A model generated the notes under the pieces. It had not been told where the DNA came from, did not search any database, and saw only the letters and a list, made by a program, of their open reading frames with translations. A stretch of 64,000 nt of DNA from Bacteroidia bacterium (GTDB taxonomy: Bacteria > Bacteroidota > Bacteroidia > AKYH767-A > OLB10): the NCBI GenBank assembly GCA_016788065.1, contig JAEUTI010000051.1:1-64000 (forward strand), given 5' to 3'. A program made the translations under genes and the position numbers. Position 1 is the first letter of the stretch, and each line of letters begins with the position of its first letter. Shown here piece after piece: positions 30,281 through 54,578 of this stretch.

Positions 30281-30390
30281 AATTTGTTGAAATGTAAGAT
30301 ATTCAATATAACATTCTAATGTATAACTTTCAATGTAAAACGCAGAATGCCCAATGTTTTGTCAGCGTTATTGAACAATGAAAGACCATT

Positions 30391-30561
30391 GACGCAGCTA
30401 TGCTGCAAATGACCTAATGACTGCGGCCCTACCGCCAATGACGCAGCTATGCTGCAAATGACCTAATGACTGTGGTCATACCGCTAATGACGCAGCTATG
30501 CTGCAAATGACCTAACGACTGCGGCCATGCCGCCAATGACGCAGCTTTAGCTGCAAATGAC
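30391..30561. repeat. 49-bp tandem repeat of two small hairpins, 3.5 copies
   Basis: Copies begin at 30391, 30440 and 30489, with a half copy at 30538. Each holds a GCAGC-TAT-GCTGC hairpin and a second G/C-rich hairpin, each followed or preceded by ATGAC. The second hairpin varies between copies in a way that mostly keeps pairing: GCGGC-CAT-GCCGC in copy 3, GTGGT-CAT-ACCGC (one G-T pair) in copy 2, and GCGGC-CCT-ACCGC with one mismatch in copy 1. The half copy keeps GCAGC/GCTGC with a longer loop. Confidence 0.92.
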
Positions 30562-46780: not shown

Positions 46781-48322
46781 ATGAATGATAAGCTTTCTAA
46801 TTTAGATGCTAAAATTGCTGCTGCCCAACTGGGTGGCGGACAAAAACGAATTGACGCTCAACACAAAAAAGGTAAGCTGACTGCTCGTGAGCGCCTTCAC
46901 TTCTTACTGGATGAGGGTTCTTTTGAAGAAATTGGCATGTTGGTAACACACCGCTCCCGGGAATTTGGTCTGGAAAAAGAAATTTATCCTGGTGATGGCG
47001 TTGTAACAGGTTATGGAACTATTGCCGGTCGCCTGGTGTATGTTTTTTCACAGGATTTTACAGTCTTTGGAGGTTCGCTTTCCGAAACACATGCAGAAAA
47101 AATCTGTAAAGTGATGGATCTGGCCATGCAAAATGGTGCTCCGGTGATTGGACTCAATGATTCCGGTGGAGCGCGCATTCAGGAAGGTGTTGTTTCATTG
47201 GGTGGCTATGCCGATATTTTTTATCGCAATACACTTGCATCCGGAGTTATTCCGCAAATAAGTGCCATCATGGGACCATGTGCAGGAGGTGCCGTTTACT
47301 CTCCGGCAATCACCGATTTTATTATGATGGTGGAGAATACCAGCTACATGTTTGTAACGGGACCAAATGTGGTGAAGACTGTAACTCATGAAGAAGTTAC
47401 ATCAGAAGAACTCGGAGGTGCATCAACACACTCTACGAAATCGGGCGTAACACATTTCTCCTGTGCGAATGAAGTGGAGTGCATCAATAATATTAAAAAA
47501 TTATTCAGCTATATTCCCTCAAATTGTGAAGAAGATGCCCCTGCACTTCCCTATTCCGGTGGTGATGAAAAAAGAATTTCGCTGAATGATATTATTCCTG
47601 CAAATCCGAATCAGCCTTATGATATTCGTGATGTGATCAGTGGTGTGATTGATGAGGATAGTTTCTTTGAAGTGCATAAAAATTTCGCAGAGAATATTGT
47701 TGTTGGCTTTGCGCGCATTGGTGGAAGAAGTATTGGCATAGTAGCGAATCAGCCTGCGTTTCTTGCAGGTGTACTCGATAACCATGCTTCTACCAAAGCA
47801 GCACGCTTTGTACGGTTCTGTGATTCCTTCAATGTTCCATTATTGGTATTCGAAGATGTTCCTGGATTTCTTCCGGGTACTGATCAGGAATGGAATGCCA
47901 TTATCACCAATGGAGCAAAATTGCTGTATGCATTTTGTGAAGCAACAGTTCCAAGAATTACAGTCATAACCCGAAAAGCATATGGTGGAGCTTATGATGT
48001 GATGAATTCCAAACATATTGGTGCCGACATGAACTATGCATGGCCTACTGCTGAAATTGCAGTAATGGGAGCAAAAGGAGCTGCTGAAATTATTTTTAAG
48101 AAAGAAATTTCTGAAGCAAAAGATCCTGAAGCAAAATTGAAAGAAAAAGAAAAAGAATATACCGACTTATTTGCAAACCCATATAAAGCAGCAGAGCGAG
48201 GCTATATTGATGAAGTAATAAGACCGGAAGATACCAGATCGAAATTGATGAAAGCATTTAAGATGCTTGAAAACAAAGTGGCCGTGTTGCCGAAGAAAAA
48301 ACATGGAAACATTCCATTATGA
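46781..48322 (+). CDS. Acyl-CoA carboxylase beta subunit (propionyl-CoA type)
   Basis: A 513-residue carboxyltransferase subunit that transfers CO2 from carboxybiotin to acyl-CoA, most likely propionyl-CoA. Crotonase-fold signatures are visible: [24 protein letters not shown], the oxyanion loop [13 protein letters not shown], and [19 protein letters not shown] near 380. The frame opens 37 codons earlier, but the ATG at 46781 ([12 protein letters not shown]) gives the standard length. The biotin-carrying subunit is not in the window. Confidence 0.94.
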
Positions 48323-48422
48323 TGTGCTGATGTGCTAATGTGCTGATGTGCTAATGTGCTGATGTGCTAATGTGCTAATGTGCTAATGTGCTGATGTGCT
48401 AATGTGCTGATGTGCTGATGCA
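48320..48422. repeat. ATGTGCTR octamer tandem array
   Basis: About twelve head-to-tail copies of ATGTGCT followed by A or G, starting at the stop codon region of the carboxylase gene. The inverted form of the octamer occurs at 43620-43655 and a short one at 311-332. Confidence 0.9.
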
Positions 48423-48509: not shown

Positions 48510-48580
48510 TTCTGCTAACACAGAAACAACCCAATCCTTAATCCTTAATTCTTAATTCTTAATCCTTAATTCTTAATCCT
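48510..48580. repeat. Inverted heptad array abutting the purD start
   Basis: A TTCTG-CTAACA-CAGAA hairpin (48510-48525) is followed by seven TTAATCC/TTAATTC heptads running to within one base of the purD start codon. It is the mirror image of the heptad-plus-palindrome modules at 37261-37552. Confidence 0.88.
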
Positions 48581-48581
48581 A

Positions 48582-49859
48582 TTGAATATTTTATTACTTG
48601 GTTCCGGTGGTCGTGAGCATGCTTTAGCCTGGAAGATTTCTCAGAGCAAGCATTGCAGTCAATTATATATTGCTCCGGGTAATGCAGGCACTTCGCAGCA
48701 TGGAACAAATGTGTCTATAGGTGTAAATGATTTCGAAGCTATTGCTGCTTTTTCTACTGCGAACAAAATCGATATGGTGGTAGTTGGTCCGGAAGATCCT
48801 TTGGTTAATGGGATACGTGATTATTTTGAATCACATGATGCATTGAAAAATATTCCTGTGATTGGTCCCGATAAAAATGGGGCTCAACTGGAAGGGAGTA
48901 AAGATTTTTCAAAGCAATTTATGCATCGTCATAAAATTCCAACTGCAGGATATGCCAGTTTTCAGCGAGATAATCTGGGAGCTGGTTATCTGTTTTTAGA
49001 AACTTTGCAGGCTCCTTATGTGCTTAAAGCAGATGGATTAGCAGCTGGCAAAGGTGTTCTCATTCTGAATAATCTGGATGAAGCAAAGCATGAATTAAAA
49101 TCGATGCTTGAGGATTCTAAATTTGGTAAAGCCGGAAATACGGTGGTGATTGAAGAATTTCTTGCAGGCATTGAAGTAAGTGTATTCGTTCTCACAGACG
49201 GGAAAAGTTATGTTGTGCTTCCGGAAGCAAAAGATTATAAACGCATTGGTGAAGGCGACAAAGGATTAAATACCGGAGGGATGGGTGCTGTTTCACCAGT
49301 TCCATTTTATGATGAGGCCTTTCGCAAAAAAGTTGAGGATCGCATAATCCGGCCAACGGTAAAAGGATTGCATGAAGAAAAAATTGAATACAAAGGATTC
49401 ATATTTATCGGCCTCATGAATGTTGGGGGTGATCCATATGTGATTGAATACAATGCAAGAATGGGTGATCCTGAAACGGAAGTCGTAATTCCCAGAATAA
49501 AAAATGATTTAGTTGAGTTATTTGATGCGGTTGCAAAAGGAAATCTTCATAACCATCAAATTGAAACCGATGAACGAACAGCATTAACAGTTATGCTGGT
49601 ATCGGAAGGTTATCCCGGCGATTATACCAAAGGGAAAATCATGAGTGGATTCCAAAACTGCGAAGGGAGTATTTTATTTCATGCTGGAACTTCGGGAAAA
49701 GATAACGATGTGCTGACAAACGGCGGGCGTGTGCTTGCTATTACATCGATTGCAAATTCCATTGGTGCAGCGAAAGAAATTTCGATGCAAAATGCCGAAA
49801 AAATAAAATATGATGGGAAGTATTACCGAAAGGATATCGGCAATGATTTAATGAAGTAA
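48582..49859 (+). CDS. purD: Phosphoribosylamine-glycine ligase PurD
   Basis: Second step of de novo purine synthesis (GAR synthetase, ATP-grasp). The 425-residue protein shows MNILLLGSGGREHALAWKI at the N-terminus, VVGPEDPLVNGI, the ATP-grasp loop LKADGLAAGKGVLI, and EYNARMGDPETEVVIPRI. The start codon is TTG (48582), because the conserved N-terminus begins exactly there and no ATG is nearby. Heptad repeats occupy the place of a normal leader and promoter. purQ follows 1.4 kb downstream. Confidence 0.96.
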   Translation: MNILLLGSGGREHALAWKISQSKHCSQLYIAPGNAGTSQHGTNVSIGVNDFEAIAAFSTANKIDMVVVGPEDPLVNGIRDYFESHDALKNIPVIGPDKNGAQLEGSKDFSKQFMHRHKIPTAGYASFQRDNLGAGYLFLETLQAPYVLKADGLAAGKGVLILNNLDEAKHELKSMLEDSKFGKAGNTVVIEEFLAGIEVSVFVLTDGKSYVVLPEAKDYKRIGEGDKGLNTGGMGAVSPVPFYDEAFRKKVEDRIIRPTVKGLHEEKIEYKGFIFIGLMNVGGDPYVIEYNARMGDPETEVVIPRIKNDLVELFDAVAKGNLHNHQIETDERTALTVMLVSEGYPGDYTKGKIMSGFQNCEGSILFHAGTSGKDNDVLTNGGRVLAITSIANSIGAAKEISMQNAEKIKYDGKYYRKDIGNDLMK

Positions 49860-51959: not shown

Positions 51960-52664
51960 ATGCCAGCTAGCCTATTAAAAAAAATTTTCGTAATCGCTAT
52001 TATACTTATTGGTTCATTCAGTGAAATAGCAATTTGTCAAAATGAAACTAAATTATATCAATTTTCGCCACCCGAATTTGGTAATGGCGATAAAGCTTTT
52101 GCAACATATTTTAGTGAAAGAGTGAATTTAAGAAGCAGGGATTTTAAAATAAATGTAACTGGAACACTCCAGATAAAATTTACTCTGACAAAAAATAAAG
52201 AAGTTACAAATATTGTAATCTTAGATTCAACTAACAGCACTCACTTTAACAAGGAGATTATAGATTATTTGTGGCAAGGGAGAAATAATTGGAAGACTGC
52301 AAAAATAAATCAACAGCCAACGGATATAAATATTCTGGTATCGGCAAATTTATTGGGATTAGCTCAACTTGCTGACAGTTATATTCTTAATACCGGTTTT
52401 GCATACATAGTTGATCCGTTATTACTTAATCGATACTATAATTTAGGTGCCGATCTGGCCGGTAACGGTCAATTCAAAGAAGCTATTCCATATTTTAACT
52501 GTGTTCTTGAAAATTCACCATCAGATGTGGATGCACTTTTTAATCGTGGAATTTGCTACTTAAAAATTGATGAAAATAAAAAGGCTTGTTCCGATTGGCA
52601 AACAATCTCTAATATGGGAAAGCCTGACGCAAATAAATTGCTTTTGAAATATTGCGGTCAGTAA
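51960..52664 (+). CDS. Secreted TPR protein with TonB-C-like segment
   Basis: A 234-residue exported protein with a signal peptide of about 25 residues. The middle (GTLQIKFTLTKNKEVTNIVILDSTNS) resembles a TonB C-terminal domain. A short TPR-like pair of helices closes the protein (NGQFKEAIPYFNCVLENSPSDVDALFNRGICYLK). It starts 17 bases after purQ and probably shares its transcript, without an obvious functional link. It is A/T-richer than purQ. Confidence 0.7.
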   Translation: MPASLLKKIFVIAIILIGSFSEIAICQNETKLYQFSPPEFGNGDKAFATYFSERVNLRSRDFKINVTGTLQIKFTLTKNKEVTNIVILDSTNSTHFNKEIIDYLWQGRNNWKTAKINQQPTDINILVSANLLGLAQLADSYILNTGFAYIVDPLLLNRYYNLGADLAGNGQFKEAIPYFNCVLENSPSDVDALFNRGICYLKIDENKKACSDWQTISNMGKPDANKLLLKYCGQ

Positions 52665-52735
52665 ATTGGATTTTTAATAGTGATGAATGTATTAAATACC
52701 TAAAAAATTAAGGTACTAAATTCAGGAACTCATTC

Positions 52736-53722
52736 ACGAAACAACTTCACGACCCTGAAGGGGTCGCATCTCCTCTCACTTATTCACGAAACATCTTCAC
52801 GACCCTGAAGGGGGTCGCATCTCCTCACACTTATTCACGAATAAACTTCACGACCCTGAAGGGGTCGCATCTCTTCACATCTATTCACGAATAAACTCCA
52901 CGACCCCAAAGGGGTCGCATCTCCTCACACACATTCACGAAGCAACTCCACGACCCTGAAGGGGTCACATCTCGTCACACTCATTCACGAAACAACTTCA
53001 CGACCCTGAAGGGGTCGCATCTCGTCACACTTATTCACGAATAAACTTCACGACCCTGAAGGGGTCGCATCTCCTCACACTTATTCACGAATAAACTTCA
53101 CGACCCTGAAGGGGTCGCATCTCCTCACACTTATTCACGAAACATCTACACGACCCTGAAGGGGTCGCATCTCCTCACACACATTCAGGAAGCAACTACA
53201 CGACCCTGAAGGGGTCGCATCTCGTCACACTTATTCACGAATAAACTTCACGACCCTGAAGGGGTCGCATCTCGTCACACACATTCAGGAAGCAACTACA
53301 CGACCCTGAAGGGGTCGCATCTCGTCACACTTATTCACGAAGCAACTCCACGACCCTGAAGGGGTCGCATCTCGTCACACTCATTCAGGCAGCAACTCCA
53401 CGACCCTGAAGGGGTCGCATCTCCTCACACTTATTCACGAAACATCTTCACGACCCTGAAGGGGTCGCATCTCCTCACACACATTCAGGAAGCAACTACA
53501 CGACCCTGAAGGGGTCGCATCTCGTCACACTCATTCACGAAACATCTTCACGACTCTGAAGGGGTCGCATCTCGTCACACTCATTCACGAATAAACTCCA
53601 CGACCCTGAAGGGGTCGCATCTCGTCACACTCATTCACGAAACAACTTCACGACCCTGAAGGGGTCGCATCTCCTCACACACATTCAGGAAGCAACTCCA
53701 CGACCCTGAAGGGGTCGCATCT
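52736..53722 (+). repeat. 50-bp tandem repeat, 20 copies of a hairpin unit
   Basis: Hairpin starts fall at 52750, 52800, 52851 and then every 50 bases to 53701. The constant half is CACGACCCTGAAGGGGTCGCATCTC, a six-pair stem with a five-base loop. The other half varies but is built from a few recurring blocks (such as TTATTCACGA or ACATTCAGGA, then ATAAACTT, AACATCTT or AGCAACTA). One copy (52901) has CCCCAAAGGGG, which lengthens the stem. The array fills most of the 1.27-kb gap before the transposase; 53723-53932 is A/T-rich and shows no gene. Confidence 0.97.
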
Positions 53723-53932
53723 AAGCGCTTCCATACACGTATAATCGACTATCTTCAGATAGTAAATACTTCATTTAAAAAGATGCATTATTTTTACAAA
53801 AAATTAATTCAAACTTTTAATATTGAAACAACATCTTTTTAAAAAATATTTCTGATTCATTTGCTTCAGAACATTTAAATACTTTTTCCAATTTTTTCAG
53901 GCAATAAATAAAATTTAAAACTTTGTAGAATC

Positions 53933-54394
53933 ATGGCAGGAACTTATTCTCAAATCTACATTCACATAGTCATTGTGGTTAAATACAGAAAGTATCTTAT
54001 AAAACCAGAATGGGAAGACGAACTATACAAATACATTACCGGTATAATAAAAGGTAAGAATCAACTTTTAATTGAAATAAATGGGATGCCTGATCATACT
54101 CATATTCTTATTGGTATGAAGCCAAGTATGCGATTAGATGATCTTGTTAGAGAAATTAAAAAATCCGCTACAGCTTTTATTCAACAAAAAAGGTTTGGCA
54201 ACAAGCAATTTCGATGGCAGGGTGGCTATGGTGCATTTTCTCATAGTAAAGGCAACTTAAATACTGTGATAAATTATATTAAGAACCAAAAGAAACATCA
54301 CCAAAAAAAGACTCTCCGTCAGGAGTATATTGATATGCTTGAAGAATTTGAAATAGAATATGAAGAAAAATACTTGTTTGATTGGTTGGACTAA
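53933..54394 (+). CDS. IS200/IS605-like Y1 transposase (RAYT-like)
   Basis: A 153-residue HUH-type single-strand DNA transposase. The HUH metal site is His55-Thr-His57 in MPDHTHILI, and the catalytic tyrosine is Tyr115 in VINYIKNQ. The segment WQGGYGAFSHSKG before it is typical of Bacteroidota members. No TnpB is present. Length and solitary status, together with the flanking palindromes, suggest a domesticated REP-associated transposase rather than a complete IS200. The gene looks intact. Confidence 0.92.
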   Translation: MAGTYSQIYIHIVIVVKYRKYLIKPEWEDELYKYITGIIKGKNQLLIEINGMPDHTHILIGMKPSMRLDDLVREIKKSATAFIQQKRFGNKQFRWQGGYGAFSHSKGNLNTVINYIKNQKKHHQKKTLRQEYIDMLEEFEIEYEEKYLFDWLD

Positions 54395-54409
54395 AGGTAT
54401 ATAGGGATA

Positions 54410-54578
54410 TGCGACCCCTTCAGGGTCGGGGGAAACAACGTAAGTTTAAATAGGTATATGCGACCCCTTCAGGGTCGAAGTTATGTAGTGCATGACTCGG
54501 AGATAGGATATGCGACCCCTTCAGGGTCGGTTGAAAAAACTTAAGTTTAAATAGGGATATGCGACCCCTTCAGGGTCG
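54410..54578 (-). repeat. Four inverted copies of the palindrome downstream of the transposase
   Basis: Copies of CGACCCCTTCAGGGTCG start at 54412, 54461, 54513 and 54562, each preceded by ATATG. This is the reverse complement of the upstream unit. The spacers include two copies of a TTAAGTTTAAATAGG-like block and differ from the upstream spacers. The rest of the gap up to 54758 has only a TCAAAAG-GAT-CTTTTGA inverted repeat at 54610-54626. Confidence 0.95.

Follow-up and report, generated by a model that had tools for sequence, protein, structure and literature searches.

The 64,000-nt stretch of DNA analyzed here (hereafter, the window), from a Bacteroidia bacterium, carries a locus that is probably REPtron-like and run by a Y1 (HUH) transposase of TnpA_Y1 subclass 1.2, with a unit of ~50 nt. 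The locus presents the layout of a REPtron, with a gene lying between inverted palindromes and copies of the palindrome dispersed between genes. Its features, with the class of the gene as predicted from its product, are the following:

52728..53722, tag on the - strand: upstream array (TRF: period 50, 19.9 copies)
53933..54394, + strand: Y1 (HUH) transposase gene, putative TnpA_Y1 subclass 1.2, 153 aa
54401..54596, tag on the + strand: downstream array of 4 inverted units (TRF: period 49)

The repeated core, CGACCCTGAAGGGGTCGCAT, occurs in 20 copies in one direction and four in the other, flanking the Y1_Tnp gene. As a preliminary description of this DNA had it, 20 direct hairpin copies lie upstream (52750-53720, core on the + strand) and four inverted copies downstream (54409-54578, core on the - strand, with unit starts at 54409, 54458, 54510 and 54559 and a period of 49-52 bp), a count that may be inexact, the units assembled here being nearly identical. 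A window search with the 20-mer at up to 3 mismatches returned 23 copies, all within 52750-54578, and none in dinucleotide shuffles of the window; the 24th copy, at 52800, carries one extra G. The upstream unit consists of the hairpin CGACCC-TGAAG-GGGTCG with the tag GCAT/ATGC on its gene side. Read with the tag 5', a typical window copy is GATATGC or GAGATGC followed by (C)GACCC-CTTCA-GGGTC(G). The tag is turned toward the gene in 24 of the 24 window copies, as had also been described, with ACAT in place of GCAT in a single variant (52951). Folded as single-stranded DNA, the unit forms a hairpin (-6.5 kcal/mol, z -4.2), and an Rfam search of the repeat gave no match up to E 1. The upstream units are arranged head-to-tail at 50 bp and the spacers between them are themselves repeats, so that the upstream copies form a satellite-like array. 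The downstream and upstream spacers are unrelated, with 8-13 of 26 positions matching; the periods are nonetheless alike. A CRISPR-like array was considered and rejected, since the spacers are repeats and no cas-like ORF was seen adjoining.

The preliminary description had noticed no other copy of the core in the window, which was borne out, and had proposed a genome-wide count, naming a repeat that occurs only here as grounds for refutation. The count instead revealed a dispersed family, with five further copies in this genome and 14 copies of the same core in a sister species of the same genus (G001). Three places contain the five copies, with one each on contigs C1 and C70 and an array of three on C71; every copy lies between ORFs, and the C71 array has its hairpin and spacer in common with the window array at 44-45 of 50 positions. 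This low copy number away from the gene counts against the proposed explanation. Across 100 related genomes, the pattern TRTCRCYCCTWCGGRGYT produced 131 matches versus 2 for the reversed pattern, and 22 of the 23 genomes with matches carry the gene (22/70 vs 1/30, p = 0.001); in the wider phylum, the association between repeat and gene is weaker (p = 0.04). One relative (G068) presents 33 matches and a single gene. Among the copies inspected in four genomes, 44 of 46 lie outside ORFs of at least 120 aa, and a few adjoin the G068 gene. In another genome (G224, locus L247), 25 repeats are dispersed and only a decayed, stop-containing remnant of the gene is present, from which it appears that the repeats may outlive their transposase.

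Several copies in the sister species occupy sites matching those of this genome: after purQ, with 96% identity in the flank, next to the C71 gene and, as a single copy, at the site of the C1 copy. At the site of the C70 copy, the sister species has two copies versus one within the same flanks, a difference of exactly one 50-bp unit. Between the sister species, array positions are conserved and the number of units varies, and recombination between direct repeats can yield a one-unit difference without the transposase. This comparison provided no clean example of a site empty of a REP unit, the pair of copies on C10 of the sister species lying in a gap that cannot be aligned. Separately, a 234-aa ORF located between purQ and the array in the window (51960-52664) is missing there in the sister species, where the array begins directly after the purQ stop codon.

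The arrangement around the gene was then compared across relatives. Homologues were drawn from the 100 related genomes (70 of which carry one), from named genome contigs that included Planctomycetota, Verrucomicrobiia, Acidobacteria and Ignavibacteria, and from a phylum-wide search, with 138 non-redundant loci of the subclass 1.2 lineage as the comparison set. Short GC hairpins occur in these loci at 9.9 and 10.1 per kb within the 100 bp nearest the gene on either side, and drop to 1.1-1.2 per kb beyond 1.1 kb; their density beside other window genes is 0.4-1.3 per kb. The same density profile was obtained for 20 class-2 RAYT loci. Because stem length varies, the unanchored signal in flank composition was weak, and this was solved by anchoring on the loop. 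The resulting consensus of 5' tag and hairpin is roughly CTATAANNATRTC-RCYCC-TWC-GGRGY, with a stem of at least 5 bp and C-G closing around TAC or TTC. The downstream tag of the window, TAGGGATATGC, agrees with this consensus at its TA and AT positions, and the window hairpin, having a loop of 5 nt, falls outside the strict C(TNC)G count. Hairpins of the C(TNC)G type number 255 within 400 bp of the gene versus 9 at 900-1300 bp; 80 of the 138 loci have one within 400 bp, and 58 have none of that type. Considering the nearest copy on each side, the tag points inward in 96 of 117 cases and outward in 21 (p = 1e-12), and the asymmetric flank facing the transposase that had been pointed out for the window hence holds in most of the family as well. 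Both orientations alternate at three loci (L036, L125 and L144), as in REPINs or BIMEs. The class-2 sample has a C(TNC)G hairpin at 7 of 20 loci, mostly facing outward.

Of the 46 loci in which neighbouring hairpins share a direction, 38 space them at 46-55 bp, with exact values clustering at 47-53 bp. The same spacing of ~50 bp is found in loci with unrelated hairpins and spacers, and also among copies distant from the gene (G068, 52-53 bp; G042, 54-57 bp), which suggests that the length of the unit is set by the machinery. Distances between proteins and distances between their tag-hairpins correlate across 76 loci (r = 0.49, 0 of 2000 permutations), which would follow if every enzyme recognised a repeat of its own; linkage alone would give the same result.

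These observations bear on the possibility that the arrays are a plain satellite generated by slippage or recombination, next to which the Y1 gene is incidental or whose hairpins only stop transcription. Such an origin would agree with the exact 50-bp direct array and with the differences in unit number between sister species, and the hairpins downstream of the gene may be terminators. Arrays persist, moreover, in the sister species, in whose contigs, which break inside arrays, no intact window-type gene was found (best identity 27%). A satellite does not explain, however, why the same tag and hairpin appear inverted on the other side of the gene with unrelated spacers, why the ~50-bp period recurs in unrelated loci, why copies are dispersed, or why the asymmetry faces the gene in tens of loci, and we consider this origin unlikely.

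The gene between the arrays is, as had been stated, a lone Y1 transposase gene. It is intact (153 codons), and its product matches Pfam Y1_Tnp with E 2.8e-27. Motifs assigned from the sequence are DHTH (residues 54-57), WQ (95-96) and YIKNQKKHH, which contains the catalytic Tyr115. The protein thus presents the Y---Q--HH signature and the DH[IV]H and WQ motifs of subclass 1.2, and the C-terminal tail F..EY...L...YEEKYLFDW is common to both. Using held-out profiles, the one for subclass 1.2 being built from rows less than 50% identical to the window protein, it scored 199.6 bits for subclass 1.2, 70.9 for IS200 1.1 and 20.1 for class 2. Its 74 bits exceed the cut-off of 55 of the NCBIfam IS200/IS605 model, and with the RAYT model NF047646 it falls short, at 27 bits for a cut-off of 80. 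In a 103-row tree, a single branch separates each of subclass 1.2, class 2 and IS200 1.1 from the remaining rows (support 69, 99 and 88, respectively), and the AU test does not exclude a position of the window protein beside the IS200 rows. An AlphaFold2 model of the protein (pLDDT 92) aligns with the IS200, IS608 and ISDra2 transposases at Z 12-12.8 and with the E. coli RAYT-REP complex 4er8 at Z 10.8, giving a predicted IS200/RAYT fold. Firm grouping with mobile IS200 copies, the other outcome that the preliminary description had named as refuting when it put forward a tree placement, is therefore not observed, and subclass 1.2 is the best profile. Judging by motifs and profile scores, the window protein belongs to TnpA_Y1 subclass 1.2, an IS200-side lineage. 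Quentin 2018 gives Y---Q--HH as the signature of this subclass, lists REP as 'no' for it, and describes it as occurring mostly in Cyanobacteria and Bacteroidetes, at low copy number and not IS-like (PMC6006769).

An ordinary IS200/IS605 insertion sequence, with hairpins derived from its ends through local duplication, would accommodate the NCBIfam IS200 score and the result of the AU test, and its transposases (IS608, ISDra2) resemble the window protein in fold, in HUH and Y motifs and in the use of a hairpin with a 5' guide sequence, IS200/IS605 TnpA being the nearest profile after subclass 1.2. The ends of IS200-type elements are read on one strand, as established for IS608 and ISDra2. Such an element has one left-end and one right-end hairpin, both with the guide 5' on that strand, and is mobile as a whole, its copies being highly identical. 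The window instead presents 24 hairpins with inverted sides; an inward orientation of tags from both strands is not that of such a pair of ends, and agrees with REPtrons, in which the gene stays and the repeats move. Solo repeats occur between ORFs without the gene, and no tnpB was found among the neighbouring ORFs. Where a genome has several subclass 1.2 genes, identity between them is mostly 25-60%, close pairs are few, and the genes are hence not IS-like copies. Near-identical copies of a whole element were likewise not found in this genome, where the two Y1_Tnp genes over the cut-off are 25% identical to each other. An insertion sequence of this type is accordingly improbable as an explanation. 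The second of the two genes (G000:C50:1141-1572, locus L031), also of subclass 1.2, has its own array behind it, with different hairpins (AACCGA...TCGGTT), and a counterpart of its locus in the sister species (C66, 83% DNA identity). A further Y1 gene of this genome (G000:C91:51172-51624) is class-2 (RAYT-like) and scores 59 bits to NF047646, below the cut-off.

A diverged true RAYT of class 2 and the GTAG type is most improbable: the layout with inverted flanking REPs is that described for RAYTs by Nunvar 2010 (PMC2817692), but the protein fails the RAYT model, reaches only 20 bits with the class-2 profile versus 199.6 with that of subclass 1.2, lacks the NP motif, and stands apart from class 2, which occupies one side of a branch with support 99. 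The NP(L/V)(R/K)xG motif near the catalytic Tyr, which defines RAYTs (PMC2817692), is absent from the window protein, which has NQKKHH instead, and a GT[AG]G tetranucleotide 5' of the hairpin is absent in the window copies, where the tag is GATATGC or GAGATGC. The RAYT reading of the preliminary description can hence be retained for the REPtron-like layout and not for the protein sequence. Similarly, the RAYT-like asymmetry with a different motif that it proposed persists as a gene-facing flank, without the GTAG/GTGG tag.

For the preferred reading, a REPtron-like locus run by a subclass 1.2 transposase, we infer that the repeats are transposed. If the enzyme behaves as the transposase of IS608 and E. 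coli TnpA_REP do, its dimer would bind the hairpin in single-stranded form along with the 5' tag, probably while these lie on the template of the lagging strand. Tyr115 and the HUH motif of the partner subunit would nick at a site chosen via the tag, with the hairpin as a handle. In TnpA_REP and IS608, a guide or GTAG tetranucleotide lies 5' of the hairpin and cleavage takes place between C and T (PMC8266576). The unit would correspond to the ~50 nt between equivalent nicks of neighbouring copies, and would be excised, duplicated in place or pasted elsewhere between genes, while the gene would stay put as its repeats spread. This scheme assumes that TnpA is what makes the arrays grow, and not slippage or direct-repeat recombination.

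The system resembles subclass 1.2 as defined by Quentin 2018 (PMC6006769) in its Y---Q--HH signature, length of ~150 aa, conserved C-terminal tail, low copy number and occurrence in Bacteroidetes. It differs in that tagged hairpin arrays border the gene upstream and downstream, and hairpins also adjoin the gene in most of the relatives sampled, in contrast to the REP 'no' listed there. With RAYTs and REPtrons (PMC2817692, PMC8266576) it has in common a lone Y1 gene, inverted 5'-tagged hairpins, dispersed intergenic copies and divergent genes. It departs from them in the missing NP motif, in a tag that is ATRTC/ATGC-like rather than GTAG, in the common head-to-tail arrays following a ~50-bp rule, and in fewer copies per genome. 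Subclass 2.6 of Bacteroidetes (Quentin 2018) belongs to the same phylum and has non-GTAG hairpins near the gene with copies elsewhere, but its motif is YIH[QN]NP, compared to YIKNQKKHH here. The TIRYT/TIRtrons of Di Nocera 2013 (PMC3733652) appear similar in combining a Y1 gene with inverted non-GTAG repeats, some dispersed; as far as their description goes, they have long terminal inverted repeats with GGGGWSAS, instead of short tagged hairpins and ~50-bp arrays.

The recurrence of this layout across Bacteroidota and beyond suggests an unrecognised lineage of REP-spreading transposases. The broader proposition, that subclass 1.2 is a separate, phylum-crossing lineage of this kind with an enzyme-set tag-hairpin-spacer unit of ~50 nt, and that IS200-like ancestors gave rise to REP systems on two or more occasions, has in our view an even chance of being correct. 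No report of REPs for subclass 1.2 was found in the open-access literature, supplements aside, and the system would add a repeat partner to a subclass said to have none. It appears to work like a RAYT/REP system, yet is no RAYT by protein signature or tag. The pairing of domesticated Y1 transposases with REPs serves as a model of transposase retention by a host in which the short repeats of the enzyme spread, and GTAG-type REP systems are known mainly from Proteobacteria. Should subclass 1.2 indeed operate repeats of its own, marked by a different tag and constant in unit length, REP systems would extend beyond the GTAG type. The ~50-bp rule provides a testable handle on what exactly is moved in REP systems, and the family may account for a class of intergenic hairpins left unannotated in the genomes of Bacteroidota.

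The window contains other tandem arrays. A second array with a 49-bp period (30386-30561, 3.6 copies) carries palindromes GCAGC-TAT-GCTGC, has no Y1 gene beside it in the window, and is possibly another REP-like family. Two simple arrays precede a purD-like ORF at 48582, one of TGATGTGC (48320-48420, 8 bp x 12.6) in front of it and one of AATCCTT (48533-48580, 7 bp x 6.9) directly before it.
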